The position numbers and the translations under genes were made by a program. From the NCBI RefSeq assembly GCF_000970045.1, contig NZ_CP009505.1, positions 3,868,808 through 3,932,807 of the forward strand: DNA of 64,000 nucleotides, given 5' to 3'. Positions 1-16,378 of this stretch are shown here, one piece after another. Numbering within the stretch: the stretch's first letter is position 1; the number at the start of each line of letters is the position of its first letter. The notes below the pieces were generated by a model, which searched no databases, was not told where the DNA came from, and was given only the letters and a program-made list of their open reading frames with translations. The DNA is from Methanosarcina sp. MTP4 (GTDB lineage Archaea; Halobacteriota; Methanosarcinia; Methanosarcinales; Methanosarcinaceae).

Positions 1-1810
1 CCGCTGTGCGGTTCATCCCGTACGCCGAACCAGGGAGCCATTCATGGGTCCCGTGGGTCCCGAGGTGGATCAGGGCATCAGGCTTCCATTCCTCGTTCTT
101 ATTCAGCCAGAGATAGAAAGCAATGTACTGGTGCGGGGGCGGGAGGATGCTGCTGTGGTACATGGCATTTTCATTCTGCATGAAACCCCTGGCAGGCTGG
201 GGCATGAGCCAGACGTTCCCACAGCGGACAGCCGGGATCACGATATATTTCCCGCTTTCGTTTTCCCAGATCATGTGACTCTTGTCCGAAGGCACGTCTT
301 CTTCCCAGGGCGCACCCCACTCTGCAATGGTAGCTTCCCGGAGGTCTTCGGGAATTTCAGCCTCAAACCACTCCCTGTAAGTCTCCATTGGCAGGAGCAC
401 CATGTCCCCGTTTTCAATTCCGTTCTGGACCATTGCCTCAAGTTCCCCGGGAGCCCAGGAACCGACATTCCTGCCCCGGTCCTGGATCCTGTCCAGCAGT
501 TCCGTTGAATTTTTCGGGGCGTCCTCGATATTATAATTCCGTTCACTTTCATTCATCTTTTGAAGTATGGAAACCATACTCGAGATAGTGTCAAGGTAAC
601 TTGCCCCGACGTTGTCTTTTCCAGGCGGGTAGTTGTAATAGATGATTGCAACGTTTTTCTCAGTGTTATCCTTGAGTTTCAGTTCTGCCCAGTTTATCGA
701 GCGGTTTGCAATCCAGTCTACCTGGGCAGGGATTGCCTCATATACGTACTCGTTCCAGGAAACCTGTATATTCTTCCCGACCACGATGTACTCGAAAATC
801 CCGTCCCTGTCCGGAGCCATAGTCTTTCGGGCGACCTCTTCGGTGGGAATCCCCCTGTTAGCGTCGGCGGGGTCATCGGATTCCGAAGCCACGATGCCTT
901 TCAGTACCGCCACGTCCAGGTCCTCCAGTTCCTCGATTCCGCGGGTATAGTTTTCGTAATTAAGTGCGAAGCTCTTTAGAGAAATCGCACACTGAATGAG
1001 GGGTTCACCGCTTTCGTCACAATAAAATTCGGTGACATTGTTAAACGTATCAAAACCTGCGATTACGTTGCAGTCCTTGCTTTCAAGGTCCCTGATAAGG
1101 GCATCCACAACCTCGGTATTCCCGTCTTTGTAATCGCTCTTATGGAACCATATCCCGATTGTGGGACGGTCCGGGTCATAGACCCTGTGCTCCCCGTTTG
1201 AGCTGTTGCCGTACCATTCAAGGTATTCGGAGTTGTTGTCGAACCAGTACTTATCGACCGGAGAATCCGGATGGTAAAGCCCGGCAGGCAGGATTATAGG
1301 GTCCTCATATTCCCAATCCGCTGTCAACTCCGTTTTGCTTGAGAAATTCTGGGCAAGGTAGGCAAGGAAATTTCTGGAGTTTTCCTTGAGGAATTCCTCC
1401 TCTACCCCGATGTTGTAAAAGTACTTCTCGACCATACTTCCGTTTTCATCCCCAGGGTAGGCATAGTCATAATCGGACATATTAAAAGAAGCCCCGGGGA
1501 AGGAGGTGATGTCGATTAGCACGGCACCGTTCGACTTTGCCCTTTCAAGGTCATCTCCGACCTCATCAAAAACCGAATCCCAGAGCATGTAGGTGAATAT
1601 GATGTCCGGGTTCCCTAAATCGACCTCCGAAAAGTCCGTGGTTCCGGATTCGTAATATGTCAGGTTCAGCTTATCTTTATATGGACTGGTATTCCAGCCC
1701 TCTTCAAAAGCAGCCTGAGTACCATAGCTTATTACTGTTATATCAACGTGGTTTTCATCTGCCGATACCGTTGGCGCAAGCAACAAAAGAAGCACTGCGC
1801 TTAAAAACAA
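1..1810 (-). CDS. Surface CobN-family protein, copy 3 (C-terminal part outside window)
   Basis: Open from about 1810 to the left edge, so the gene is partial. It starts with a signal-peptide-like stretch (LLFLSAVLLLLLAPTVSA), has one N-terminal module, then the CobN core. The family motif HLGTHGTHEWLPG lies at about residue 580 (bases 33-75). The two neighbouring paralogues reach that motif near residues 865-890, so this copy has a shorter N-terminal half. CobN/ChlH proteins are the large, tetrapyrrole-binding subunits of cobalt and magnesium chelatases and are normally cytoplasmic; this one should act outside the membrane. The start is unclear. A TTG at 1810 is the first usable in-frame codon. 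Upstream in the same frame is GTG (1834-1832), well placed after a GGGGGA ribosome site, but it is followed at once by a TAG codon. The gene may be read from TTG, use TAG as pyrrolysine, or be damaged at its start. Confidence 0.85.
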   Translation of the reverse strand, partial: MFLSAVLLLLLAPTVSADENHVDITVISYGTQAAFEEGWNTSPYKDKLNLTYYESGTTDFSEVDLGNPDIIFTYMLWDSVFDEVGDDLERAKSNGAVLIDITSFPGASFNMSDYDYAYPGDENGSMVEKYFYNIGVEEEFLKENSRNFLAYLAQNFSSKTELTADWEYEDPIILPAGLYHPDSPVDKYWFDNNSEYLEWYGNSSNGEHRVYDPDRPTIGIWFHKSDYKDGNTEVVDALIRDLESKDCNVIAGFDTFNNVTEFYCDESGEPLIQCAISLKSFALNYENYTRGIEELEDLDVAVLKGIVASESDDPADANRGIPTEEVARKTMAPDRDGIFEYIVVGKNIQVSWNEYVYEAIPAQVDWIANRSINWAELKLKDNTEKNVAIIYYNYPPGKDNVGASYLDTISSMVSILQKMNESERNYNIEDAPKNSTELLDRIQDRGRNVGSWAPGELEAMVQNGIENGDMVLLPMETYREWFEAEIPEDLREATIAEWGAPWEEDVPSDKSHMIWENESGKYIVIPAVRCGNVWLMPQPARGFMQNENAMYHSSILPPPHQYIAFYLWLNKNEEWKPDALIHLGTHGTHEWLPGSAYGMNRTA

Positions 1811-2113
1811 TAACCTGAATTTTAGACTCTACACAATATCCCCCACAACTTCTTGTGAAATTCCGGATCACCCCTGGAGAAAAATTGCCAGAATGTCGGA
1901 ACCACAATTTCATTTTCTTTTTAGAACCGAATTAGATTGTACTGGTGTGCTACAAAGAAATCCGGATAGCCAGGTTGTAAAAATGAAGCTGGAAGCTCTC
2001 ATTCCGGCATTAAATCCAGATCCAGAACCACCAGTAACTAATCAATAGCGACCCCACAGACCCATTCGATACTCATGAGCTGTAAGGGTATAAAATATAT
2101 AAAAAATAGTTTT

Positions 2114-2142
2114 TGGCTAACGATTATTAGCCATTTGGATAA
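2114..2142 (-). promoter_or_regulatory. Operator palindrome of cobN copy 3
   Basis: TGGCTAACGATTATTAGCCA at 2114-2133 is a perfect inverted repeat (arms TGGCTAA/TTAGCCA around CGATTA). A third half-site, GGATAA, starts 22 bases after the first (2137). The same layout precedes the other two cobN units (8087 and 15435); here both arms carry C/G where the 15435 copy has G/C, so symmetry is kept by paired changes. It lies some 280 bases upstream of the gene start. The binding protein is unknown; the nearby ArsR-type regulator is the obvious candidate. Confidence 0.7.
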
Positions 2143-2252
2143 AAAGACCGATTTAAGGCATATTTAACTGATAAAAAACATAAATCACACACTAATTTCA
2201 AATAAATCAATAATGAGAATGAGTTTTATGAGATAGTCATATTATGAGCCCA

Positions 2253-2272
2253 AAAAAAGAAGAAGAAGCGCA
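2253..2272 (-). terminator. U-rich termination tract after cobN copy 1
   Basis: On the minus strand a T7 run with flanking TTC repeats lies about 90 bases after the stop of the gene ending at 2363. Archaeal termination commonly occurs at such U-rich tracts; no clear hairpin was seen. Confidence 0.35.
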
Positions 2273-2362
2273 CGTAAGAATATAAGCACGAATAAATGAA
2301 AGTGCCTGGAAGCACTTTCTACCAGAAAAGGCTCATTATTCTTGCGCCGCATTTCTATCTGT

Positions 2363-5300
2363 TTAAAGCTTCTTCTTCCTGAATCCGAGATAGATACCTC
2401 CCACTGCTGTAAGCACAAAGAGGATACCGAAGGCATCTGCCCCTGAAAAGGACATACTTCCTTCTCCAGATTCCTCAACGGACTCTTTTGTCATCTCATA
2501 GCCCTCAACGTAGCTGGAATCCGCATCCTGAGAATTGGGGCTTGTCGGGGTTTCGAGGGTATCGGTCCCATAACCTGCAACCGCATCACTGGTTAAGGTC
2601 TGGTTGCTTCCTTCGGAACTCCTGATTGTGGGGGTAGAGCTACCCTTATTCCCGCTTCCGGATTTATGGGAGTTTTCTGGATTTTGGGTCGGGACAGAGA
2701 GACTGCCGGAAACAAATTCGTTCAGCAGGGGGTTCCCGCAGGTATGGTGGCAACATGCTGCCCCATATTCTTCAACGGATTCGGAGTAATCCTGGGCAAG
2801 TTGTTGAATTACATCTTCCGATGGTGTCCAGTACCCTTTCCTTATAGCTTCAATCATTCTGCCGGTAATTGATTGGTATGCATATTTATTATTTTCATTG
2901 AACCACTCTTTCATTTCTTCACTTGTGTAGATTTCATAGGTCTGCTGCCAGACACTGTCATCAACAAGCTCAGGATCGGACACTTCCCATCCCCAGAGAT
3001 TATCCACGAATTCTGAGAACATTCTTCCACCAGCATAACCGGATTCTTGCATGCCCTCTACCCATTTGGGGTTCCAGTATCTGGAACGCAGGTTTTTCAT
3101 TAGATACTCCTGCATTCCCACCATCCTGGCGGCATCGGGATCGCGGGTATCTGAAACATACATTTCGGGAGTCTCTCCTGATACATACCTCGTTGCAAGA
3201 TTCAACGCACCGAAGTACTGGAAGAAATCGTCATTATCCAGCGTATCGTAGAGATTAGAAGAATCTGAATGAACAGATGCATCCACATTTCTAAGATTTC
3301 CGATCAATAGTTCCGAACTCTTGAAGCCCCAGAGAGATTGTCCGTAAACGTATCCCATTTTTTCAAGATACAGTTCGGCAATTGCACTTTCATCATCCCA
3401 GGAGTCACTTGAATCAATTGCGTTACCTGTTCCTATTTCATAGGTGCCGTCCATTACGGCAAAGCATCGCATGGTTGAAAGCTGCCCTGCAAGGCTTGAA
3501 GCCTCTTCTTCACTCATCCCCTGAGCAATAAACTGGGTATACAATTCATCATATATTGCTGAACTGCTTTCATTCACATAATTTGTGTAATTTCCTGAAG
3601 GAGCCTCACTTGCCATCTGGACCGCATAATCGATCATTTTGATCTTGCTCGGGAAAGCATCCCTCATTCCTGCAGTTACATAGACAATATCAATTCTGGG
3701 CCTTCCGGGATACTCACCATAGCTTGGACCCAGTTCTTCTTCGGGTATCAACTTAAATTGCTCGTGATCAATCTTCTTGTTGCCATTCCATCCCGGCTCT
3801 ACACCAAGCAGATAAAGGATTTCAGCCTCAAGAGTTCCATGATCTCTGATGAATTCCACCCCGAAGCGCGAGAAGGAGACCTTTCTCGGATATTCACCAT
3901 ATTTTTCGTAATAGTCCTGAAGCAGTTGTTCAGCAAGATATTTCCCCATCCTCCATGTTGCTTCGGATGGATAGAGATCCGGATCAACTCCATAGAAATT
4001 CCTTCCGGTAGGCACTGCTGCCGGGTTCATGACAGGGTCTGTACCTGGACCTGCAGGGATAAATTCTCCAGATAAGGCACCAATCACACGGTCCATCTCA
4101 ATTGTGGAGGCAAGGAGACGGTCACGGTAGATTAGACCGCGTTCCAGATCTGCAGTAACAGATTCGTTGATTTCACCGTACACCATGAGCTGGGAGTCAT
4201 TGACACTGGTTTCATTGGTTACAACTTCCCAGACAAGTTGCATTACCTTTGTATCATTGGAAGGAATACCTAACGGATATTCATCTTCCGGATAGAAAGC
4301 CAGGGTTACATTCTCATCAAATTTGTTTCCAAGCATAGCCCATACCATGGCAGAAAGCTCATCACGTGTCGGATCTGACATATTGGTCGAAGGAACCTGA
4401 CCGAGGATATGCATTCCGTAGGGCATGTTTTCACCTTCTACTTCTTCGACATATTCATGGAGTACATTCTTGATGAAATCACCGAACTGAGTTGTGTTGT
4501 ATGAATACAACTCTGTGACATTAATACCAAGATCGAGATCCAGGTTCAGACCGACCATTTCATCAATGATATCTATCTGGTAAGCCTGCTTGGTCTGCTC
4601 ACTCATTTCAGGTCCGTAATAAGTCTGCATGAGCTGGGAAAGATTTGCGATTTCACCGTAACTGCCAGATCTTTCAAGAGTTGGGGTAAGGTGGTCAATG
4701 ATCAGAGCATTTCCACGGTATTCAGCCGTTAACCCCTCTCCCACATTGGCGACGATGTAGGGATATATATTCGGAAGGTCCTGTAGCAAGATGGGAGCCC
4801 ATTCCGCAGTACGGTTCATCCCGTAGGTTTGTCCAGGAAGCCATTCATGGGTTCCATGAGTACCTAAGTGAATAATTGCATCCGGATTCCATTCCTTATT
4901 TAACCAAAGATAGAAACATATGTACTGGTGAGGTGGCGGGACAATAGCACTGTGATAAAGGGTATCATCGTTCTGTAAGAATCCGCGTGCAGGCTGAGGC
5001 ATGAGCCATACGTTATCAAACTGGACAGCAGGGATCACCAGATATTTTCCACTTTCGTTTTCCCATATCATCAAGGACTTGTTCTCTGGCAGATCTTCAT
5101 CCCACGGAACACCCCATTCCTCGATAACCTGATCCTGAAGGTCCTGAGGCACTTCCTCCTCAAACCATGTGCGATACTGTTCCATCGGGATGAGCTGCAA
5201 GCCCCACTCTTCCCTGTTCTCGACCATTCCGTCAAGAACATCCGGAGCCCACGAACCTGCATTTATACCCTGGGACTGCAGCATTTCCAGAAGCGCTGAA

Positions 5301-7540
5301 TTGTTTTCAGGAATGCTGGAGACCGTATAGTTTGCATCATCCATTTCTTCAAGCAAGAGCCTCATACTTGTTATCGTGTCAAGGTAGCTGGCACCGATGT
5401 TATCCTTGCCTGAAGGATAATTGTAGTAAATTACTGCAACTTTCTTATCGCTGTTTTTCTCCAGTTTGAGATTTGCCCACTTGATGGCTCTGTTTGTGAT
5501 CCAATCGATCTGGCCCTCCATAGGAACGTACTGTGTCCCGACATCTGATTCAACTTTCTGGCCGATCACAATATACTCGAATATACCATCAATATTTGGC
5601 ATCATGGTCTTGCGGACTACTTGATCATTTGGGATTCCTCTGTTTGCATCTGCAGGATCGGGCTTAGAATTTACTTCTACCACTATTCCCCTAAGTACTG
5701 GCACATCAAGATGCGTCAATGAATCAAATCCATAACCTTCATAGATACGAGGATCAATACCTATACCAGTATCGAGGCTGAAGCTTTTTAGGGATATTAT
5801 AGATTGAACAAGTGGAGTTTCATTTTCACCACAATAGTATCCTTTAATGTCATAGAAGGTATCCGCCCCTACAATTACATTGCAGCCCTTGTCTTCAATA
5901 TCCTTTATCAAAGAATCGACAATAGCTGCATTACCTTCCATGTAATCCGGCCTATGGAACCACATTCCAATTGTTGGTTTGGATGGGTCATACACGTGAT
6001 GATCTGAAGAGGAATTTTCATACCAATCCAGATATGTAGAAAGGTTTTCAAAGTATTTATTTTCAGCATCAGGGTGATAGATAAATTCAGAAGGAATAAC
6101 TTCGCCCTGGTCTGAAAGACACCATCCAGATGTAAGGTCAGGTTTATTGCCATATTCTTTGGCGATGTATGTCAAAAAATTCTCAGCGTTTAGCTGGCCA
6201 TATGAATCCGTACCCATGTTGCTATAGTAGAGGTAAATAGTATCATTTTCAGTACCATTTGAAACATAATCGAAGAAATCAGGAGTAAGGCCTGAATTTA
6301 TGTCAAGCAATGAAGAGCCGTTCTCATGAGCAGGGAGGAATGCATTGGTAAAGTTATCATCATACCCTATCATGTCACAAAAGATGACATCCTGCTGTGA
6401 AAGGAAACCACTATCTGAAGCTTGCAACAGTTCTTCACTGGGACCACCTGACCCATAAGAGAGTATGAAGCTATAATTGATGAACTCTGCGTAAGGGTTT
6501 GTCATGCTTGCAAGTTCAATAGCAGGAGTCGGGGATGTCTGCTGGTCATAGTAAACATAGGTAAAGTTGATTTTTGGCCATTCATCTGTGATTTCAGGAT
6601 GGTTACCATATTCTCTTGAAAGATACATCAAAAGGTTCTCAGAGCTCTTGATACCTGAAAAAGTATTGACACTCATACCGTTGTAATATGTACAGATGCG
6701 GTCTTCATCATCGCCATCAGAAATATAGTCAAAGAATTCTGGAGTTCCTGAAGAGCGTATATCAATTAGCGAAGAGCCGTTCTGATCTGCCATCGAGAAA
6801 GTGTTATTTAGATCTTCACTATAGAGCAGCATGTCACAGAAAATAACATCTTGATGGGAAAGAAAAACGTCATTTGAACCGTCTGAAACATCATCGTTTA
6901 CGTTCAGATAAGTATAATCAATGAATTCTGAATAAGGACATGTCATACTTGCAGCTGCAATTGAAGGATTTTCAGACCAGCCAATGTATGTGATGTTGAT
7001 CATCGGCCAGCTGTCTGTTATTTCAGGGTGCCCCCCATATTCTCTGGAAAGGTGGATCAGTAAGTTTTCGGCATTCTTTGTACCTTCAAAAGTTTCTGAA
7101 TCCATATTGTTGAAGTAGCTGCCTATTTTAGCATCAACAGAATCATCTGATGCATAAACAAAGTAATCAGGTGTGTCAGTAGATCTTATGGACAGTAAGG
7201 AAGCTCCGTTTTCATATGCAGAGAAAAAACTACTGTTGGTCTCATTAAAAACTGGAGCCCATAACATATCACAGAAAATTACATCCTGGGTTGAGAAAAA
7301 ACCGCTTTCAGAAGCATTTTGAAGATCATCTCCCCCATATGCGAGAATATAGGTAAAATTGATCTGATCAGAGTATACATTGCTAAAGCTTGCTGACTGA
7401 AGTATCTCTGCTGGCTCAGATAAGCCCACATATGTTACATTTATCTGGTTCTCTGATGCCGATACCGCTGGCATTGAAAAAGCCAGCAAAATCAATAGAC
7501 CTAATATTAATTTTATCAAAAAATCCTTTCGTTTGAGCAT
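2363..7540 (-). CDS. Surface CobN-family protein, copy 1 (triplicated N-terminal module)
   Basis: 1725 residues. Start chosen at ATG 7540 (MLKRKDFLIK), after GAGG with 7-base spacing; the leader matches that of the paralogue starting at 13536. A signal peptide ends at VSASE near residue 30. Residues about 30-480 hold three tandem modules of roughly 150 residues, each with a QDVIFCDM block, an NG(A/S)SLL.I.S block and an ENLL.YL(S/A)(R/K)EYG block. The CobN core follows, with HLGTHGTHEWLPG near 890. A CCHHTCGN motif lies near 1596, then a Ser/Thr-rich linker, a conserved SFSGAD stretch, one membrane segment and a basic tail (RKKKL). The layout predicts a cell-surface protein anchored at its C-terminus. 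It may bind or exchange metal in an extracellular tetrapyrrole; that is inference. No ATPase partner could reach it there. Confidence 0.93.
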   Translation of the reverse strand: MLKRKDFLIKLILGLLILLAFSMPAVSASENQINVTYVGLSEPAEILQSASFSNVYSDQINFTYILAYGGDDLQNASESGFFSTQDVIFCDMLWAPVFNETNSSFFSAYENGASLLSIRSTDTPDYFVYASDDSVDAKIGSYFNNMDSETFEGTKNAENLLIHLSREYGGHPEITDSWPMINITYIGWSENPSIAAASMTCPYSEFIDYTYLNVNDDVSDGSNDVFLSHQDVIFCDMLLYSEDLNNTFSMADQNGSSLIDIRSSGTPEFFDYISDGDDEDRICTYYNGMSVNTFSGIKSSENLLMYLSREYGNHPEITDEWPKINFTYVYYDQQTSPTPAIELASMTNPYAEFINYSFILSYGSGGPSEELLQASDSGFLSQQDVIFCDMIGYDDNFTNAFLPAHENGSSLLDINSGLTPDFFDYVSNGTENDTIYLYYSNMGTDSYGQLNAENFLTYIAKEYGNKPDLTSGWCLSDQGEVIPSEFIYHPDAENKYFENLSTYLDWYENSSSDHHVYDPSKPTIGMWFHRPDYMEGNAAIVDSLIKDIEDKGCNVIVGADTFYDIKGYYCGENETPLVQSIISLKSFSLDTGIGIDPRIYEGYGFDSLTHLDVPVLRGIVVEVNSKPDPADANRGIPNDQVVRKTMMPNIDGIFEYIVIGQKVESDVGTQYVPMEGQIDWITNRAIKWANLKLEKNSDKKVAVIYYNYPSGKDNIGASYLDTITSMRLLLEEMDDANYTVSSIPENNSALLEMLQSQGINAGSWAPDVLDGMVENREEWGLQLIPMEQYRTWFEEEVPQDLQDQVIEEWGVPWDEDLPENKSLMIWENESGKYLVIPAVQFDNVWLMPQPARGFLQNDDTLYHSAIVPPPHQYICFYLWLNKEWNPDAIIHLGTHGTHEWLPGQTYGMNRTAEWAPILLQDLPNIYPYIVANVGEGLTAEYRGNALIIDHLTPTLERSGSYGEIANLSQLMQTYYGPEMSEQTKQAYQIDIIDEMVGLNLDLDLGINVTELYSYNTTQFGDFIKNVLHEYVEEVEGENMPYGMHILGQVPSTNMSDPTRDELSAMVWAMLGNKFDENVTLAFYPEDEYPLGIPSNDTKVMQLVWEVVTNETSVNDSQLMVYGEINESVTADLERGLIYRDRLLASTIEMDRVIGALSGEFIPAGPGTDPVMNPAAVPTGRNFYGVDPDLYPSEATWRMGKYLAEQLLQDYYEKYGEYPRKVSFSRFGVEFIRDHGTLEAEILYLLGVEPGWNGNKKIDHEQFKLIPEEELGPSYGEYPGRPRIDIVYVTAGMRDAFPSKIKMIDYAVQMASEAPSGNYTNYVNESSSAIYDELYTQFIAQGMSEEEASSLAGQLSTMRCFAVMDGTYEIGTGNAIDSSDSWDDESAIAELYLEKMGYVYGQSLWGFKSSELLIGNLRNVDASVHSDSSNLYDTLDNDDFFQYFGALNLATRYVSGETPEMYVSDTRDPDAARMVGMQEYLMKNLRSRYWNPKWVEGMQESGYAGGRMFSEFVDNLWGWEVSDPELVDDSVWQQTYEIYTSEEMKEWFNENNKYAYQSITGRMIEAIRKGYWTPSEDVIQQLAQDYSESVEEYGAACCHHTCGNPLLNEFVSGSLSVPTQNPENSHKSGSGNKGSSTPTIRSSEGSNQTLTSDAVAGYGTDTLETPTSPNSQDADSSYVEGYEMTKESVEESGEGSMSFSGADAFGILFVLTAVGGIYLGFRKKKL

Positions 7541-7556
7541 TTGTTTTCCTCGAAAA

Positions 7557-7601
7557 TGCCGGAAGCTTTCACAACCCATAAAACAAAGAGAAGTTCCGAC
7601 A
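7557..7601 (-). promoter_or_regulatory. Conserved 5' leader hairpin of cobN copy 1
   Basis: In the mRNA, UGUCGGAA pairs with UUCCGGCA around a loop that resembles that of the hairpin before the paralogue (13553-13599). One pair is G-U here and G-C there. The ribosome site GAGG begins a few bases after the 3' arm, so folding could affect translation. Confidence 0.5.
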
Positions 7602-7664
7602 GGGTTTTCCATATTAATTTTTGTATAATTTTAGATATGAAAGGCAGATTGATTTAAGACAAAT

Positions 7665-8039
7665 TTAAAGCCAGCAGCAAGCAGGCACAGCAAGAACCGC
7701 CAGGCAGACAGGGCAGGGCATTGAGATGGTGAGGAAGTTATGCCTTGAAATATCCCTTCCGGAGTTCCATTCTTTCTGAGTGTAAATCCCGGCTCCGATG
7801 AGAAGCAAAGATACTAAGACATGAATTCCCATGCCCATGGAAGAAATTTTTTCAAAACGATCCATGCTTATGTGGTCTACAACCTTTCCGAAAATCAGGG
7901 CCAAAAAGGAATAGCTGCCTCCGACTGCGAGGAGTTCCCGCGTTTTTAGGTTTGAAAAGCCGCAACCGAATCCAGTTTTAAGCCCAAAGAGGAGGATCCC
8001 TATTAAAAATCCAATAACAGTCAATACAGCAGAGTCCAT
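7665..8039 (-). pseudogene. Truncated DUF2162 copy
   Basis: 124 codons that closely match the first part of the intact 225-residue DUF2162 protein at 14710-15387 (MDSAVLTVIG start, GCGFSNLKTRE, SSMGMGIHV, and the CPVC motif). Just after CPVC one base is missing relative to the intact copy (GCTGTGCC against GCGGTATCC), shifting the frame to ACCWL and a stop. Similarity ends within a few bases of that point, in the leader of the next cobN. So it is a 5' fragment with a frameshift, left by duplication of the whole unit and loss of the rest of DUF2162, the ExbB-like and the DUF2149 genes. It keeps its own operator upstream (8087), so the promoter may now serve the downstream cobN directly. Confidence 0.75.
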
Positions 8040-8086
8040 ATTATCTCTCTGAGAATTTAGAACTTTATTAAATAAAAGCTGGTTTT

Positions 8087-8115
8087 TGGATAACGGATGT
8101 TACCCATTGTGGTAA
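8087..8115 (-). promoter_or_regulatory. Operator palindrome of the DUF2162-fragment/cobN copy 1 unit
   Basis: TGGATAACGGATGTTACCCA (8087-8106) is the least symmetric of the three operators. A third half-site TGGTAA starts at 8110, again 22 bases after the first. It lies about 50 bases upstream of the DUF2162 fragment, the same distance as the intact unit's operator. Confidence 0.65.
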
Positions 8116-8371
8116 CAACATGCCTATTGAAACCGTTTTTCATTAATGGAAGTTGGCAGCCTTCTATAAGCCGGCACATAAAAGAGAGGGAGATATTAAA
8201 AAAATAGCTCTGAAGAGAACCGATCTAAATCAGCTTCAAGAGGCTTAAAACAAATAAGAAGAAGCATACCAATCCATTCAGTTCAAATTAATGGAGATTC
8301 TTTATTTCAGAGGATTTCTACAGAGCCAAAAAAAATGGTAATTAAAGAGGGGGAAAAAGAATAATAGCCAG

Positions 8372-8386
8372 AAAAAAAGAAAAAAA
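8372..8386 (-). terminator. U-rich terminator of cobN copy 2
   Basis: On the minus strand the pattern T7-C-T7 begins about 42 bases after the stop codon at 8428, typical of intrinsic termination in archaea. Confidence 0.5.
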
Positions 8387-8427
8387 GTACGGCGCATAAT
8401 ATCGCGCCGCTTTTCAGACATCCATAT

Positions 8428-11400
8428 TCAAAACTTCCTTTTCCTGAATCCGAGATAGATTCCTCCAACTGCTGCAAGTACGAACAAAGTGCCCACAATG
8501 TCAGCACCTGAGAAAGACATGCCTCCTGACTCTTTTTCGGCAGTTTCCCTTGTCATCTCATAGCCTTCGACGTAATCGGAATCTGCAGCTTGTCGGACTT
8601 CAGGAGCAGGTTCGGGAGAATCAACACCATACCCGACATCCGAGTCCTGAACAGTCTGGTTGCTGGCAGTTTCTTCGGTGTTTGTAGAGGTCTGGTTGAG
8701 TTTTTCGGCAACACTTGTCTGGTGCCCGTTGCTGCTGTGGCTGCTACCTTCACTGGACTGCGGAAGCTCCCTTTGTGTTGCCTCCTGCATCAGTCTCTCA
8801 TATTCTTTTGCGGTATCCGGGTCGACAACTCCCGGGACTGACATTACACCCTGTATATACTCATTAAGCAGGGCATTGCCGCAGGTATGGTGGCAGCATG
8901 TGACACCGTTTTCGGCCACAGATTCGACATACTCTTTGACCAGGTTCTGCAGCACTTCATCCGAAGCATCCCAGGATTCTTTCCTTATAGTTTCGATCAT
9001 CCTCGCTGTTACGGATTGGTACTGATATGCATTTTCCTTAAGGAATTCATCCACACCAACATTCTGTGAGTCCAGTATCAGTGTCTCATACATTTTTTCC
9101 CAGTCCGAATCCGTTACCAGGTCAGGGGTAGTTGCCTCCCAGCCCCACATGTACTCTACAGCCTTCATCATTTCCCTGGCACCGGCATAATCAAACTCCA
9201 TCATTCCGTTAAGCCAGTTCGGATTGAGGTATCTGGCTGCCAGCTCCTTACTGAAAGCTTCTCCAAGGGTGATAATCTCAGGATTGGCAACACTTGTAAA
9301 GTCGGCAACAAACATCGAAGGAGCTTCACCACTCAGCGTTTTTACGGCAAGCCCGAGTCCGCCGAGATACTGGTAGTAATCATCGTTGTCCATGAGGCCA
9401 TAGAGGTTAGATGTATCACTGTGAATAGCTGCATCTACTCCCATCAGGTTGAGCTTGAATACATCCTCATAATTATCTCCCCACACATCCGCTCCATAAA
9501 CATTTGACATCCTGGAAATGAACAGGTCAGCAATCTCGGAGGTGTTGTCCCATGTGTCACTTGCCTCCACAGCTTCCACCACTCCGGTACCATAGGTTCC
9601 TGGAGCTTCACTGAAGATTCTGGACCTTGAGATATAATGTGCAACACTTTCATTGTACCCACTTTCCAGCATTGCACTTTCTATTATGAGCGAATTCATC
9701 CTGACGTAATTTGTCTCATTCGTCTCATTGAGGTCTGCAACCGTGCGTACCGCAGTGTCCATTAGTTCAAGCTGGTATGGGAAGGTATCACGATAGAGTC
9801 CTGAGGGTACCAGTAACACATCAATTCTAGGATGGGTCATATTTTCCTGAGGGATAACTTCAAATCCTGTTATCCTCCCACTGGTCCTTTTAATTTCCAC
9901 ACCCAGAAGCTCGTATATCTGCGCTTCCATAAGTCCTTCATGGCGCATGGTTTCAACAGACCAGAGAACAAAGGCTACTTTGTTAGGATAGGTACCATTT
10001 TCCGCATAATATGAATCAAGCCATGTGTTGATAACTGCACGCCCCATGGCTTCCGTTTCTTCGTCCGGGATAGTCCTCTGGTCAAAGCTGTAGAAGTTCT
10101 TTCCAGTGGGCAATGCTTCTGGATTGCGGATAGGATCGTTACCGGTTCCCGGTTCAATGTATTCTGCATTGAGAGCCCGCAGTGTCTGGTTTATCTCTCG
10201 GGTTGTCAGAGCCAGGTTATTGGCATACACGATTCCCAGTTCAAGGTCTGCTGTTATGTTTTCATTGGTAAAGTTAAGTACCTCAAGCTGGGCACCTGTC
10301 ACACTGGTTCCTTGCAGCAACGTGGAATTCAAAAGCAACACGGCATCAGAATCGGCTTCATTTTGCCAGTCTTCCTCGGTTCCGTTGACTTTAGGCAATG
10401 CATCATAGATATGGTCTGTGAAATCATCACCCAGCATGGATTTGACCATGCAGACAAGTTTCTCATCTTCCGGTGCAACACCGAAGATATGGAGGCCGTA
10501 AGGCATGAGTTCCGATTGCAGTTCGTGCAGGTAATCGTGCAGCACACTGTCCAGGAAGCTCTCAAATTCATTATCTGTCATGGCAGACAATTCATCAGTT
10601 GAAACCCCGAGATCCTCTCCAAGGGTCAGATTATCATACAGTTGTATCGTACTGTTGCGGTACAGCACCATCATTCCGGTTTCGTTGTCACCCTTTGCAT
10701 CCTCATAATTGTGGATTTTCTCATGCAATGTTGCAAGGTCACCATAGAGGCCAGCCTCAACGATGGGAGGTGTCAGGTGGTCGATTATGACTGCGTTACC
10801 GCGGCGCTTTGCCTGTGTTCCTTCACCTACGTTATCCATGATATAGGGGTATACAACCGGTGTTTCAGCCACCATGATGGATGGATAGTCATATCTCCAC
10901 AATCCGACTTCATTGCCTGGTAACCATTCCTGTGTACCATGGGTACCGAAATGGATAATGGCATCAGCATCGTATATGCTGTTGATCCAGAAATACGCTG
11001 CAAGATACTGGTGTGTCGGAGGTATTGATGAGTTATGGTATGTGAGCGACTCATCGGAAAGTTTTGATCTTGTTGGCTGGGGTATGAAATTGATGTTGCC
11101 AAGCTGTATCGTAGGTATTACAAAGTACTTTCCGCTTTCATTTTCATAGGTCATGACATCGCCAGGGGCTTCTCCCCATGTTTCCTCAACTTCTGAGCGG
11201 ACACTTTCAGGCAGCGTGTTGTACCATTCAAGGTATTCCTCTGAAGGGAGCAGAGTTACATAGCCTGACTCTACGACTTTCTCAAGTTCTCCGGGCGCCC
11301 ACGTCCCTACGTTTCTGCTTGTTATGAAAAGGTCAATGAACTTGCTGCCGTTTGGAATGCTGTTGTTTCCAAGGTCATATCCGGCTGCCTGCATGTCCTC

Positions 11401-13536
11401 TAACAGGAGAGTGAAGCTTGAACTGATATCAAGGTAGCTGGCGCCGATGTTGTTCTTACCACCTTCATGGTTATAGTAAATGATGGTGATTTTCTTGGCA
11501 GCATTATCCATTTCTCCAAGTTCTGCCCATGCAATTGCCCTGTCGCATATCCATTCGACCTGGTACGTGAGAGGTTCATAGTAATACGTTCCTTCATCGT
11601 TTTGAGTCCTTCCTGCTATCCATATGTAATCGGTTAGTCCATCTATTTCCGGTTGTGTGACCTGGGAAGGAATGGAAGTGGAACTGAGCCCATTTACATT
11701 TTCAAGGTACTTTTCGGGATATTGGTAATAATCGGTTACAGCTTTTAAGACGGGAACGTTGTATGTTTTCTGCAGGTATTCTACTGCTTTTTCATGGTCG
11801 TTATAGTTGAGATAGAAACCTTTCACTGAAACGATCGAATCGACAAGTACTTCTCCGTCTCTGGTGAAATAGTCCAGATTTCCATCACAAACATCATCTG
11901 TTGTGAGGATTACATTGCACCCCTTTGATTCAAGTTCTCTGATGAGTGCATCCTCAGCCGTGAATGAAATTGTCGTCTGACCAAAATCGTTACTGATAAT
12001 ACCTATTGTTGGAGCAGAGGAATTATATCCGTTTTCGGCATACCATTCAAGATACTCCGTACTGTTCCCAAAGATCCTGGGGAAGGCATCCGGATGGTAT
12101 ATACCATTCTTCGAAACGTCAGGGGCCTGTGCAGGAGCATATTCTATGTAGACATCCTCCAGCATTGCGCCAGTGCAACGGATCCAGTTCTCCATATTCG
12201 TATACCCGCTGTTTGTGCGGTAATCTTTCAACACATCATATGGCGGTACTTCCATGTCGAACGTTGCTATCCCGTACACATCTGCCAGCATTCCGAACAT
12301 CCCTATCTGTGCACCGTTGTACTGTGCTTCAAGAAGTTTGTCCTTCAGTTCAGGAAGTTCGTTAGCTCCCACCATGTAAAGTATTATTACATCATCGTTT
12401 GATACGTCAATGTCGTTGTTTATGGCCTCTGTGCCGGTCATGACTCTGACATTGAACCTGTCTGTGATCACTTTTCTTTCATCAAGGACCTCCTTCATGA
12501 AAGAAATCTCAACATCGGAATTAAGGATGTAAGTCACATTCACCTTTGGCAGAACTATTTCAGGTTCATCGATCAGTTCATCCTGCCAGATTTGTGCAAA
12601 CTTCTGCCCCATTAATTTGAGCATGTTTTTCATGTTTGTCTCGCCGCCCTGTATCCAGTATCTTTCGATATCCTTGTATTCGTCCGAATACAGGTCAACG
12701 TTTGGCAGAGTGATATTGGAGGAAAGGTTGTACCCTATGACCATTGAACCGTGTGTCCTGGCAAGATTTATGCTATCTGTCGAGTTATTTACCGCATTTT
12801 CACTCTGGGAATCTATGAAAATCATAGAATAGTTGGAGAAATCAAAGCCTTCCGGTACAGGAGTATCCTTTGTGAAAACCGTTATGTTGAGTTCTTCCGA
12901 GATATTGCCGTCCAGAACCGCATTATTCAGAGCCTCTTCATTGAATTCCGTCCCCAGGACAAACAGGAATTCGTTGTAGTTTACAATCGTATTGTCCCAA
13001 TCACCGGTTATCTCGGTATGATTCCCGTACTCTTTTGCCAGGTAAATCAGCAAGTTTTCTGCGTTTTTGAGTCCTAACCCCACTGTGCTCATGTTGTTGT
13101 AATAGTTGCATATCGGATCAGCAGTGGAGCCATTTGAGGAATAATCGAAATAAAAAGGTGCACTGTCTGAGTTTATGCTAAGCAATGAGGTCCCATTACC
13201 ATGGGCAGATTCCAGGCTTTCATTTATCCCGTTAAAGACCGTATCGCCAACCCTGTCAAAGAATATGACATCCTGAGTTTCCAAAAATCCACTATCGACA
13301 GCTGCCAGCAATTCATCACTTGCATAATATGTATCCTTAAATGCCGGAATGTAAGTGTATTCAATAAATCCGCTATACGGATTTGTCTGGCTCGCCAGCT
13401 CCAGAGCCTCACCCGGCTGCCATGCTACATACGTAATATTAATTTTGTTTTCATCTGCCAATACGGGTGCTGAAAGCACCAGAAGAATCAACAAAAATAA
13501 AAATGGTTTTACCAAAAAATCCGTTCTTTTGAGCAT
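8428..13536 (-). CDS. Surface CobN-family protein, copy 2
   Basis: 1702 residues, starting MLKRTDFLVK after GAGG. The signal peptide ends at VLADE near residue 28. There is one N-terminal module of the type triplicated in copy 1 (QDVIFFD, GTSLLSI, ENLLIYLAKEYGNH), then a different region to about 470. The CobN core carries HFGTHGTQEWLPG near 865 and CCHHTCGN near 1543. A hydrophilic Gln/Ser-rich linker, SFSGAD, one membrane segment and an RKRKF tail end the protein. It is last in the series DUF2162, ExbB-like, DUF2149, cobN, with about 155 bases before it that hold a leader hairpin. The context suggests that the channel proteins act on this surface protein, as ExbBD acts on TonB; that is inference. 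Confidence 0.94.
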   Translation of the reverse strand: MLKRTDFLVKPFLFLLILLVLSAPVLADENKINITYVAWQPGEALELASQTNPYSGFIEYTYIPAFKDTYYASDELLAAVDSGFLETQDVIFFDRVGDTVFNGINESLESAHGNGTSLLSINSDSAPFYFDYSSNGSTADPICNYYNNMSTVGLGLKNAENLLIYLAKEYGNHTEITGDWDNTIVNYNEFLFVLGTEFNEEALNNAVLDGNISEELNITVFTKDTPVPEGFDFSNYSMIFIDSQSENAVNNSTDSINLARTHGSMVIGYNLSSNITLPNVDLYSDEYKDIERYWIQGGETNMKNMLKLMGQKFAQIWQDELIDEPEIVLPKVNVTYILNSDVEISFMKEVLDERKVITDRFNVRVMTGTEAINNDIDVSNDDVIILYMVGANELPELKDKLLEAQYNGAQIGMFGMLADVYGIATFDMEVPPYDVLKDYRTNSGYTNMENWIRCTGAMLEDVYIEYAPAQAPDVSKNGIYHPDAFPRIFGNSTEYLEWYAENGYNSSAPTIGIISNDFGQTTISFTAEDALIRELESKGCNVILTTDDVCDGNLDYFTRDGEVLVDSIVSVKGFYLNYNDHEKAVEYLQKTYNVPVLKAVTDYYQYPEKYLENVNGLSSTSIPSQVTQPEIDGLTDYIWIAGRTQNDEGTYYYEPLTYQVEWICDRAIAWAELGEMDNAAKKITIIYYNHEGGKNNIGASYLDISSSFTLLLEDMQAAGYDLGNNSIPNGSKFIDLFITSRNVGTWAPGELEKVVESGYVTLLPSEEYLEWYNTLPESVRSEVEETWGEAPGDVMTYENESGKYFVIPTIQLGNINFIPQPTRSKLSDESLTYHNSSIPPTHQYLAAYFWINSIYDADAIIHFGTHGTQEWLPGNEVGLWRYDYPSIMVAETPVVYPYIMDNVGEGTQAKRRGNAVIIDHLTPPIVEAGLYGDLATLHEKIHNYEDAKGDNETGMMVLYRNSTIQLYDNLTLGEDLGVSTDELSAMTDNEFESFLDSVLHDYLHELQSELMPYGLHIFGVAPEDEKLVCMVKSMLGDDFTDHIYDALPKVNGTEEDWQNEADSDAVLLLNSTLLQGTSVTGAQLEVLNFTNENITADLELGIVYANNLALTTREINQTLRALNAEYIEPGTGNDPIRNPEALPTGKNFYSFDQRTIPDEETEAMGRAVINTWLDSYYAENGTYPNKVAFVLWSVETMRHEGLMEAQIYELLGVEIKRTSGRITGFEVIPQENMTHPRIDVLLVPSGLYRDTFPYQLELMDTAVRTVADLNETNETNYVRMNSLIIESAMLESGYNESVAHYISRSRIFSEAPGTYGTGVVEAVEASDTWDNTSEIADLFISRMSNVYGADVWGDNYEDVFKLNLMGVDAAIHSDTSNLYGLMDNDDYYQYLGGLGLAVKTLSGEAPSMFVADFTSVANPEIITLGEAFSKELAARYLNPNWLNGMMEFDYAGAREMMKAVEYMWGWEATTPDLVTDSDWEKMYETLILDSQNVGVDEFLKENAYQYQSVTARMIETIRKESWDASDEVLQNLVKEYVESVAENGVTCCHHTCGNALLNEYIQGVMSVPGVVDPDTAKEYERLMQEATQRELPQSSEGSSHSSNGHQTSVAEKLNQTSTNTEETASNQTVQDSDVGYGVDSPEPAPEVRQAADSDYVEGYEMTRETAEKESGGMSFSGADIVGTLFVLAAVGGIYLGFRKRKF

Positions 13537-13691: not shown

Positions 13692-14084
13692 TTAATCTGA
13701 GGGAGAGGTCTCGTTGCCTCCGGCCTCTTCCTCACTTTCAGGCACGTAAATTACCCTGCCGTCAGCCAGTTTATAAGCCGTACCGAGAGCTTCTCCTGTC
13801 CCTCCCCCGATGTTGTCGGTCATGTTCAGGACTTCTATGGGTTTCCCCTCTTCCTTGATAATGATCTTCATATCCTGCTGCCCCGGATTTTTCACAATAG
13901 TGATATCTTCGTTGGGGTTCAGGAGTTCAGGGAGCTGGTAGGACATCACCAGGGCGACCAGCAGGGCAACCGAGAAGACCATAGCCACGTCGAAAAGGTT
14001 GGCAACCCCGGTAAGGGGGTTCTGGTCATCAGGGTCAGCGAGGAGACCTGTACGGTGGTAGCGTCTCGATTTTGATCTTTTCAT
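13692..14084 (-). CDS. DUF2149 protein, ExbD/TolR-like
   Basis: 130 residues: a basic cytoplasmic start, one membrane segment at about 28-50, then an extracytoplasmic domain with an acidic tail. The segment reads NLFDVAMVFSVALLVAL. This has the same layout as ExbD/TolR, where the conserved aspartate at the start of the helix carries protons (FIDVMLVLL in ExbD). It starts 2 bases after the stop of the ExbB-like gene, so the pair should be co-translated. Role: likely the stator/effector part of an ion-driven motor that acts on the large surface CobN protein encoded next. The DUF2149 assignment is from recognition of the family and its usual neighbours; the ExbD likeness is read from the sequence. 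Confidence 0.88.
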   Translation of the reverse strand: MKRSKSRRYHRTGLLADPDDQNPLTGVANLFDVAMVFSVALLVALVMSYQLPELLNPNEDITIVKNPGQQDMKIIIKEEGKPIEVLNMTDNIGGGTGEALGTAYKLADGRVIYVPESEEEAGGNETSPSD

Positions 14085-14086
14085 CC

Positions 14087-14713
14087 TTAATCTCCTGTTT
14101 TTTCTTCGATTGTGTCAAGGATGTAATCGATATCTGACATATCTTCCCAGTACCAGCGCCTCCTGATCTGGGTCAGGACGTAGCCGATGATTCCGGCAAA
14201 GAGCCCCACAACCGTAGTGGCAAAGGCGATCATGAGGTTGTTTGCAAGCGTGGCAATGTCTCCGCTTGAAAGCCCTATCAGAGCGGGGCCGAGAGGGATA
14301 AGGGTCCCCATAAGCCCGAGCATGGGGGAAATCGTTGCAACGATCTTTGTTTGCTCAAGGCGCTTGGCCATTTTGATTTCATAGTCCTCGGAAAGCCTTT
14401 CGATCGCCGGGAAGTTCATGTCGTTCAGGTACTTCGAAGCTTCTCTCGAAAAAGCACTTACCATGTAGTTCTGCTTTATGTTTCCCAGAACTCTGGCAGC
14501 CTCCGAAAAGTTTGAATTCAGGCAGGATTCCCTTAAACCCTTGCACTGAACTTCCAGATTGTCCCTGTCCCTGTGCCGCTTTGCGTACTCGGAGAGAAAT
14601 TCCCCGATAAGGATCAGGGAAAAAAGCACCAGAAACAGAAGGATCAAGATTACCGGATAGAGCAGAGCCGAGGAGAAGGTATACATTATCTCGAAGATGG
14701 GGCCTGCACTCAT
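14087..14713 (-). CDS. MotA/TolQ/ExbB-family proton channel
   Basis: 208 residues with three membrane segments: about 10-38, 118-140 and 155-180. The region ISPMLGLMGTLIPLGPAL and the following helix (NLMIAFATTVVGLFAGIIGY) match the ExbB/TolQ core. A cytoplasmic loop of about 75 residues lies between the first two segments, as in ExbB. Its ATG overlaps the DUF2162 stop (ATGA), and DUF2149 follows after 2 bases. In bacteria ExbB and ExbD turn the proton gradient into mechanical work on a partner reaching across the cell envelope. Here there is no outer membrane, and the likely partner is the membrane-anchored CobN-like protein. Confidence 0.92.
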   Translation of the reverse strand: MSAGPIFEIMYTFSSALLYPVILILLFLVLFSLILIGEFLSEYAKRHRDRDNLEVQCKGLRESCLNSNFSEAARVLGNIKQNYMVSAFSREASKYLNDMNFPAIERLSEDYEIKMAKRLEQTKIVATISPMLGLMGTLIPLGPALIGLSSGDIATLANNLMIAFATTVVGLFAGIIGYVLTQIRRRWYWEDMSDIDYILDTIEEKTGD

Positions 14714-15387
14714 TGTTCAGACCTCACATGCCCGAGGAAAAACCCTCCCAGAATGATGAGTCCCAGTATCAATAGGGGAACCACTCCTGAACTGCCTCCG
14801 TCCAGGGTAGCCAGGTGCATCTGTTTAGTTTTCATGTAGGCAGGGATCAGCAAAGCCCCCAGAAGGTAATAGATTCCGAGGAGCATCATAACGGTTCCCA
14901 GGGTCTCGGGAGTCTTGCCCATTTTCCTGAAAATGAGGGAAGAGCCTACAACCGAGATGAAAAAAGCAGTTCCTACAAGAAGTCCGATCTTCAACCCGCC
15001 TATGTCAAGGGTGGAAGCCAGCAGCAAGCAGGATACCGCAAGAGCCGTCAGGCAGACAGGGCAGGGCATTGAGATGGCGAGGAAGGTATGCCTTGAAACA
15101 TCCTTTCCCGAGTTCCACTTTTTCTGGGTGTAAATCCCGGCTCCAATGAGAAACAGGGAAACGATCACGTGAATCCCCATGCCCATCGATGAAATTTTTT
15201 CAAAACTATCCATGCTTATGTTATCCACAATACTTCCAAAGAGCAGGGCCAAAAAGAAATAACTGCTTCCGACTGCGAGGATTTCTCGCGTTTTTAGGTT
15301 TGAAAAGCCACAACCTAATCCAGTTTTAAGCCCGAAGATGAGGATACCTATTAAAATCCCAATAACAGTCAATACAGCAGAGTCCAT
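14710..15387 (-). CDS. DUF2162 membrane protein (putative transporter)
   Basis: 225 residues, about six membrane segments. A CPVC motif sits in the fourth (SMPCPVCLTALAV), and another cysteine pair region (GCGFSNLK) is near residue 27. The fold resembles the LysE/DsbD-like transporter group; a CxxC within a membrane helix would allow transfer of metal or reducing power. It heads the operon DUF2162, ExbB-like, DUF2149, cobN and has the operator 48 bases upstream. A truncated, frameshifted copy lies at 7665-8039. Substrate unknown; possible jobs are moving a metal or tetrapyrrole released by the surface protein, or keeping that protein's cysteines reduced. Confidence 0.88.
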   Translation of the reverse strand: MDSAVLTVIGILIGILIFGLKTGLGCGFSNLKTREILAVGSSYFFLALLFGSIVDNISMDSFEKISSMGMGIHVIVSLFLIGAGIYTQKKWNSGKDVSRHTFLAISMPCPVCLTALAVSCLLLASTLDIGGLKIGLLVGTAFFISVVGSSLIFRKMGKTPETLGTVMMLLGIYYLLGALLIPAYMKTKQMHLATLDGGSSGVVPLLILGLIILGGFFLGHVRSEQ

Positions 15388-15832
15388 AGTATCTCTCTGT
15401 GCATTTAGAATTGAGTTAAATAAAAACTGGTTTTTGGGTAACGATTATTACCCAGAAGGCTAACAAGCCCGAAGCTGAGATCGTTTTTTAGAGAAGGAGA
15501 AGTTTAGGAAGAACTATGGACCTGAACTTAAGAACTAAAAAATTAAAAAAATAACATCAGAAAATAGTAAAGGATTATTATAATCAGCGATTAAAAAAAT
15601 AATCGGAAGAGGGAATAAGAAATATTGACGGATTGTTAATATTAATTATGCCCTAATTAACTCTGTTAACATTTGAGATTTGATTTGGGATTGTGGAATG
15701 GAGAAAATAAAATTCAAGTAAATTTGAGTAAATGCAATTAGAAAAAAGTAGCTAAAAGAGGGCATATAATATATTACTTGTATTTATGAATAGCAATAAT
15801 TATAAGTAATGGAGTTTGTATAGGAACACATT
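15388..15832. other. Divergent promoter region, DUF2162 operon and ArsR-type regulator
   Basis: AT-rich. The operator (15435-15454) is at the left end, near a T/A-rich TATA-like stretch on the minus strand. The right part contains TGTTAAT.. and ..ATTAAC runs (about 15635-15680) that could serve the regulator promoter. No gene was seen. Confidence 0.5.
15435..15463 (-). promoter_or_regulatory. Operator palindrome of the DUF2162-ExbB-DUF2149-cobN operon
   Basis: TGGGTAACGATTATTACCCA is a perfect inverted repeat with a CGATTA centre. A third half-site, GGCTAA, starts at 15458, 22 bases (about two helix turns) after the first. On the transcribed strand it precedes a TTTTTATTTAA stretch that may be the TATA box, so the bound protein could either recruit or block the transcription machinery. 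Confidence 0.75.
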
Positions 15833-16378
15833 ATGGTAGTAAATGTTATGAAGAATTCAGGAATAAACGGAGGGGGAGAGAAACTATTCAAAGCAATATC
15901 AAGCGATACCCGCCTCTCCATTCTTGAACTCCTGAGCGGAGAGGACACTCACATCTCAGGTATTGCCAGGGAACTGGGGATCTCCGTACCCGTAGCTGCC
16001 AAACACATAAAGATCCTGGAGGAAGCCGAACTGGTTGAGAGAAAAAAGTTAGGGAACCTCCATATGATAGCAATCAAAATCAGCAACGTATATTCATTTC
16101 TGGACCACTTTGCAGAAAACCGGGACGTAGAAGTTGAAGAAGGCACAACCCTCCTTGAAGCCCTGAAAAGTGTTGCCGCCGTGGAGGTCACACAGATGGG
16201 AAACAGGATAAAAGTAGTTTCCACGGACGGAGAGGAAGGCTTTTACATTTATGAAGTTGACGGGAAATTCTCGGACAAAACAGTGGATGAATATACTTTT
16301 GAAGAAGACGCAGTCGTGGAGTGGAAAAAACTTATTCCGGTCACGAAAAAGAGACTGTTTGTGAACATCAGGAGATGA
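15833..16378 (+). CDS. ArsR-type regulator with DUF4430/transcobalamin-like domain
   Basis: 181 residues. Residues about 15-85 form a winged helix of the ArsR kind (LFKAISSDTRLSILELL, then ISGIARELGISVPVAAKHIKILEEAELVERKK). Residues about 97-178 (EEGTTLLEALKSV, GFYIYEVDGKFSD, EDAVVEWKK) follow the pattern of DUF4430, the beta-grasp domain related to the C-terminal domain of transcobalamin and intrinsic factor. That domain binds cobalamin in animals, so a corrinoid or related tetrapyrrole is a reasonable ligand guess. The gene is divergent from the CobN operon, which makes it the likely reader of the shared operator. The usual ArsR metal-site cysteines are absent. The domain match is made by eye. 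Confidence 0.85.
   Translation: MVVNVMKNSGINGGGEKLFKAISSDTRLSILELLSGEDTHISGIARELGISVPVAAKHIKILEEAELVERKKLGNLHMIAIKISNVYSFLDHFAENRDVEVEEGTTLLEALKSVAAVEVTQMGNRIKVVSTDGEEGFYIYEVDGKFSDKTVDEYTFEEDAVVEWKKLIPVTKKRLFVNIRR

Follow-up and report, generated by a model that had tools for sequence, protein, structure and literature searches.

A probable tetrapyrrole and cobalt acquisition regulon with a newly inferred operator beside an ArsR-DUF4430 regulator of Methanosarcina

The regulator gene and its divergent CobN operon

The window analysed here, a stretch of 64,000 nucleotides from Methanosarcina sp. MTP4, carries the gene for a one-component regulator and, divergently transcribed from it, a DUF2162-ExbB-DUF2149-CobN operon (Table 1). 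A CobN operon next to the regulator had been named in an earlier sequence-only reading of this DNA, and the link was not only borne out at the locus but held across the order. The N-terminal ArsR-type winged helix posited by the same reading is also well founded: the Pfam family HTH_5 (ArsR) matched residues 25-69 with 39.6 bits against a cut-off of 22, the helices and wing are visible in the full-length AlphaFold model (pLDDT 76), and a Foldseek comparison of this model with the PDB matched ArsR proteins alone, including SrnR and CzrA. Matches to the regulator were detected in 197 of 238 genomes of the class at E<=1e-3, a count that includes some weak generic ArsR matches. The translation of 181 residues contains no cysteine, and the NCBIfam model HTH_metalloreg scored 48.9 bits, below its cut-off of 55. 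Metal sensing through an ArsR-type cysteine site was rejected because of the missing cysteines.

Judged by its translation, the CobN-like protein encoded in the operon has a signal-like N-terminus and a hydrophobic C-terminal segment; it has the look of a chelatase-like protein that is secreted, anchored in the membrane and partnered by ExbB and DUF2149. As a system it is closer to the HmuSTUV module for haem dechelation in bacteria than to an aerobic cobaltochelatase. Five giant CobN-like genes stand in tandem on the minus strand (window 1-13536; L109:5063-18899), the third of which crosses the left edge of the window; signal-like N-termini were seen in all that were inspected, and CarboxypepD_reg repeats in one. 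Ahead of the second CobN gene, the truncated DUF2162 copy with its intact promoter and predicted operator (window 7665-8115) constitutes a duplicate of the regulatory cassette.

Table 1. Positions in the window of the regulator, the neighbouring operon and the predicted control elements
Feature	Positions	Strand	Basis
Second CobN-like gene, 1749 aa	2363..7612	-	PF02514, 966 bits
Truncated DUF2162 copy, 124 aa	7665..8039	-	Profile match 1-118 only
Predicted second operator copy, TTACC-N6-GGTAA-N6-TTATC, before truncated DUF2162	8089..8115	-	Triple half-site scan
CobN-like protein, 1702 aa	8428..13536	-	PF02514, 1115.6 bits
DUF2149 (HmuV family in bacteria)	13692..14084	-	PF09919, 120.6 bits
MotA/TolQ/ExbB-type proton channel subunit	14087..14713	-	PF01618, 45.9 bits
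DUF2162 membrane protein, first gene of divergent operon	14710..15387	-	PF09930, 235 bits
TATA-like element TTTTTATTTAA, just downstream of predicted operator	15416..15426	-	Nearly invariant in 14-sequence alignment
Predicted operator, TTAGC-N6-GGTAA-N6-TTACC, 5' of DUF2162-CobN operon	15437..15463	-	Alignment, triple half-site scan, class-wide pattern
ArsR-DUF4430 one-component regulator gene, 181 aa, ATG start	15833..16378	+	ORF and Pfam matches
Winged-helix DNA-binding domain, residues 14-92	15872..16108	+	HTH_5, AlphaFold model, PDB fold matches
DUF4430 / transcobalamin-type SLBB domain, residues 104-165	16142..16327	+	Pfam, profile-profile comparison, models
Extra C-terminal strand, residues 171-180, past DUF4430 end	16343..16372	+	Isolated-domain model

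A transcobalamin-type domain behind the winged helix

All three motifs on which the sequence-only reading had based a DUF4430 segment (EEGTTLLEAL, GFYIYEVDGKF and EDAVVEWKK) are present. In the window protein the domain matched PF14478 with E 9.5e-4 and 20.0 bits, and with 22.1 bits when scanned alone, both below the cut-off of 23.8; taken singly this match is only suggestive, and the assignment was therefore tested further. All 21 aligned orthologues matched PF14478 (best E 4.9e-8), as did their C-terminal domains on their own (21 of 21, best 1.3e-8), and four orthologues scanned singly exceeded the cut-off with 26.7-28.9 bits. The profile search that had been put forward as a check thus supports the family, while the window copy itself stays under the threshold. 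A profile-profile comparison (hhalign) of the regulator domain with 28 DUF4430 domains taken from large archaeal proteins, most of them extracellular, gave a probability of 92%, E 6.7e-7 and a score of 40.6 over 62 columns, compared with a maximum of 20.1 for 100 column-shuffled alignments and 10.2 for the reversed alignment. It places GFYIYEVDGK(F) of the regulator on the canonical GWMYQVNG(Q) of DUF4430, and the invariant residues of the regulator concentrate in this short GFYxYEVxG segment. These profile comparisons indicate that the homology to DUF4430 is real, and the family matches settle the assignment of the window protein as an ArsR-DUF4430 regulator. In animals, domains of this kind hold vitamin B12 in its carrier proteins.

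Both the full model and a model of the isolated domain (pLDDT 92) contain a helix (residues 107-114) followed by a hairpin of two strands (117-122 and 125-131). A hairpin in this place is described, in the sections of Burroughs et al. 2007 (PMC1796856) on these domains, as a prominent insert that contacts B12 and as the hallmark of the C-terminal domains of transcobalamins; the feature that marks the transcobalamin-like SLBB clade, a hairpin insert after the conserved helix, is thus present in the regulator models. The isolated-domain model has a single strand before the helix, so that the first SLBB beta-strand appears to be missing, and the extra strand at the C-terminus may replace it. A Foldseek search of the PDB with the isolated domain returned no significant match, with transcobalamin outside the best 50, and the fold therefore rests on sequence profiles and topology, not on a structural match. 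Structure prediction, which had also been suggested as a check, accordingly upholds the winged helix and the post-helix hairpin but neither the first strand nor a PDB counterpart for the domain. A phmmer search of the PDB with the genome's other DUF4430 domain matched nothing.

Predicted operator and gene context across relatives

In an alignment of 14 Methanosarcinaceae sequences the half-sites of a block upstream of DUF2162 are invariant or nearly so. The core of this predicted operator, TTACC-N6-GGTAA-N6-TTACC, consists of three half-sites directly upstream of the TATA-like element. Spacing is strict: across 1.09 Mb of collected loci, with at most one mismatch, the 6/6 arrangement of half-sites gave 21 matches as opposed to 0-4 for ten other spacings. 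Most of these triple sites precede DUF2162, CbiM or, in L069, an operon of a TIM-barrel gene and the regulator; two cbiM cases were inspected individually. A 22-bp operator pattern was found in 21 of 238 genomes (4 matches for the reversed-pattern control), the downstream gene being almost always DUF2162, CobN or CbiM, and every one of the 21 genomes carries an ArsR-DUF4430 orthologue. Family f5 has the orthologue in 15 of 34 genomes, and all five genomes in which a convincing site was found belong to these 15 (p 0.011). This co-occurrence of operator and regulator could be a by-product of linked cassettes. Promoters of cbiM are generally without the operator, and among these genes just particular ones have it. 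In the distant archaea ANME-1 and L020, a half-site pair lies in the promoter of the orthologue itself, downstream of the TATA-like element.

The shorter single pair GTTAYC-N6-GRTAAC showed no enrichment over the control when searched genome-wide, and our claims therefore rest only on the longer triple half-site; one of the two exact matches to this pair in the 4.2 Mb genome falls in the operator copy before the truncated DUF2162. A site within a cbi operon (G000:421213) was discarded, since it does not exceed background and is situated in repeat-like DNA that separates two halves of cbiG. At L110:5600-6900 a split cbiG was observed, its two genes separated by repeat-like DNA. Separate conserved elements, AAAGTAAATTTG and TTTACTTG...ATTATAAGTA, occur 5' of the regulator gene (window 15724-15811), and AAAGTAAATTTG recurs several times in L053. 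In genera g9 and g5, where DUF2162 stands without the regulator next to it, the gene is preceded by a variant site, TTACCC...GGGTTACAC or GGTTACAC (L296:1016-1050; L299:1124-1150).

In every Methanosarcina locus with sufficient flanking sequence, the orthologue and DUF2162-ExbB are divergently oriented, the one exception being L009, which belongs to the same genome as L059. The pairing of regulator and DUF2162 extends to other genera (g7, g14) and to another family (f2: L291, L292), where the two genes are about 65 bp apart. The gap between them in this family (L291/L292, around 6715-6780) holds a different inverted repeat, AGCTTA-TTTT-TAAGCT, which suggests a diverged operator. Elsewhere, orthologues or paralogues adjoin CbiMNQO (L063, L064), CbiM (L086, L027, L139), CbtA (L075), NicO (L081) and CbiZ (L076-L078, L091), and CbiD and a tetrapyrrole methylase lie a few genes from the regulator relative in L069. 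Some orthologues in methylotrophic genera and ANME stand beside DNA-repair, ADP-ribosylglycohydrolase-like or housekeeping genes. An AP-endonuclease-2-like TIM-barrel gene occurs directly 5' of the regulator in many genera (L069, L073-L078, L091-L093), and L082:8541-9029 with its neighbour comprises two divergent ArsR paralogues of the regulator family, the second of which looks shortened. Regulator and DUF2162 are also lost together: all five Methanosarcina (g13) genomes that lack the orthologue (G161, G166-G169) lack DUF2162 too, which is absent from 6 of the 31 genomes (hypergeometric 3.5e-5). As one deletion could take out both genes, this co-loss shows a unit rather than regulation.

Proposed corrinoid sensing, rival explanations and known systems

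We hypothesise that the window protein acts as a one-component transcription regulator whose dimeric ArsR-type winged helix would bind TTACC-N6-GGTAA-N6-TTACC, with half-sites recurring every 11 bp on one helix face. The bound operator would adjoin promoters of tetrapyrrole and cobalt acquisition genes, here those of DUF2162-ExbB-DUF2149-CobN and in relatives also cbiM/cbiMNQO and the regulator's own operon. Some soluble ligand inside the cell would be bound by the transcobalamin-like beta-grasp domain at the C-terminus; the likeliest candidate is a corrinoid, either cobalamin or one of its precursors, and occupancy of the domain would alter DNA binding such that uptake is matched to corrinoid supply. 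As a whole, this model has in our estimation a marginally better than even chance of being correct. That the regulator controls the adjoining genes for capture of B12-like molecules and cobalt is probable, as is a tetrapyrrole/cobalt acquisition regulon with the newly inferred operator. In archaea, the position upstream of the TATA element serves activators as well as repressors. Since the window operator occupies this place, control may be positive or negative.

B12-dependent methyltransferases are used to an exceptional degree in Methanosarcina (PMC2667541). A search for the cobalamin riboswitch (RF00174) found none in 30 relatives, the same search being positive in 8 of 14 control genomes. 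Direct sensing by this protein is plausible given the corrinoid and cobalt neighbourhoods, the conserved operator and the lack of a detected riboswitch. A corrinoid is favoured as ligand because of the cobalt and corrinoid genes at other operator sites; CbiM families import nickel as well, which counts against a corrinoid-specific reading of this context. More tentative, and somewhat short of an even chance, is the full proposal that a direct corrinoid sensor of the transcobalamin fold replaces the bacterial B12 riboswitch, with one operator joining cobalt uptake to tetrapyrrole capture by a secreted, proton-channel-linked CobN. The missing B12 sensor of these archaea has a ready candidate in the regulator, and now that a regulator, a predicted operator and probable targets can be named, the way in which corrinoid supply is sensed can be tested directly.

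The same regulator and operator might instead serve another tetrapyrrole, such as haem, F430 or a nickel or iron precursor, for HmuSTUV-like dechelation or scavenging. Haem and F430 are possible ligands since the neighbouring operon is like the haem-dechelating hmuSTUV, with which it has ExbB, DUF2149 and CobN in common; HmuS strips haem of its iron, and the role of archaeal HmuS/CobN homologues was stated to be unclear in 2025 (PMC12583661), a matter on which the regulator would also offer a handle. Relatives of the regulator and operator, however, are found at CbiM, CbtA, CbiZ and CbiD and not at iron or haem genes, and we regard a non-corrinoid tetrapyrrole as rather unlikely. The operator could also belong to another factor, for example the nickel regulator NikR, with the ArsR-DUF4430 protein a mere neighbour. 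NikR is encoded in 229 of the 238 genomes, nickel can be carried by CbiM-type transporters, and the delta-proteobacterial NikR half-sites GTGTTAC/GTAACAC are similar to TTAC/GTAA. Published NikR sites, however, have a spacer of 13-14 bp rather than 6, genomes that lack the operator encode NikR as well, the cbiM genes sampled from genomes that have NikR but not the regulator showed no convincing operator in front of them, and the 22-bp operator was seen solely alongside the orthologue, all of which makes ownership by NikR unlikely. We consider it still more improbable that the DUF4430 domain is past ligand binding and now mediates dimerisation or contact with a protein such as a membrane partner, the regulator answering to some other signal. 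The strand changes in the domain model and the gathering of invariant residues in one short segment would fit such a role, but two marks of the transcobalamin-like clade, its hairpin insert and its aromatic strand, are retained and strongly conserved.

Among known systems, the corrinoid-responsive regulator proposed here has the winged-helix fold and recognition helix of the ArsR/SmtB metalloregulators (CzrA, SmtB, SrnR), from which it differs in lacking cysteines and in its sub-threshold HTH_metalloreg score. With the C-terminal domain of transcobalamin and intrinsic factor it has in common profile homology over 62 columns, the post-helix hairpin and the aromatic strand; unlike those proteins it has neither a signal sequence nor an alpha/alpha toroid, is fused to a winged helix, seems to lack the first strand, and has an added one at the C-terminus. 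The window operon likewise has the partners CobN/HmuS, ExbB/HmuU and DUF2149/HmuV of the Bacteroidota haem system hmuYRSTUV, with DUF2162 where HmuT would stand (a putative equivalence) and ArsR-DUF4430 next door; no HmuY or HmuR was present among the operon neighbours examined.

The closest precedent is the ArsR-SLBB fusion gi:72395507, from the same or a sister genus and identical in architecture to the window regulator, which is named in the sections of Burroughs et al. 2007 (PMC1796856) on such fusions and proposed there as a one-component regulator for B12, its precursors or another soluble ligand; a reviewer wanted the B12 wording softened. The architecture and the idea of a B12 sensor are thus not new, and the main idea of the sequence-only reading was already in print as a prediction, for which our literature search found no experimental test. 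The window protein is a real member of the predicted kind. Neither a link to a CobN operon nor an operator, a regulon or a co-loss is mentioned in those sections, and the term CobN is absent from the paper's text. New here are the absence of a detected cobalamin riboswitch in 30 relatives; the finding that the universal NikR does not track the predicted operator; the joint absence of regulator and DUF2162 in Methanosarcina; the order-wide siting of orthologues beside corrinoid and cobalt genes in several lineages (DUF2162-ExbB-DUF2149-CobN, CbiM/CbiMNQO, CbtA, CbiZ); and a predicted, strictly spaced operator that precedes cbiM as well as the CobN operon in genomes of different families that carry the regulator.
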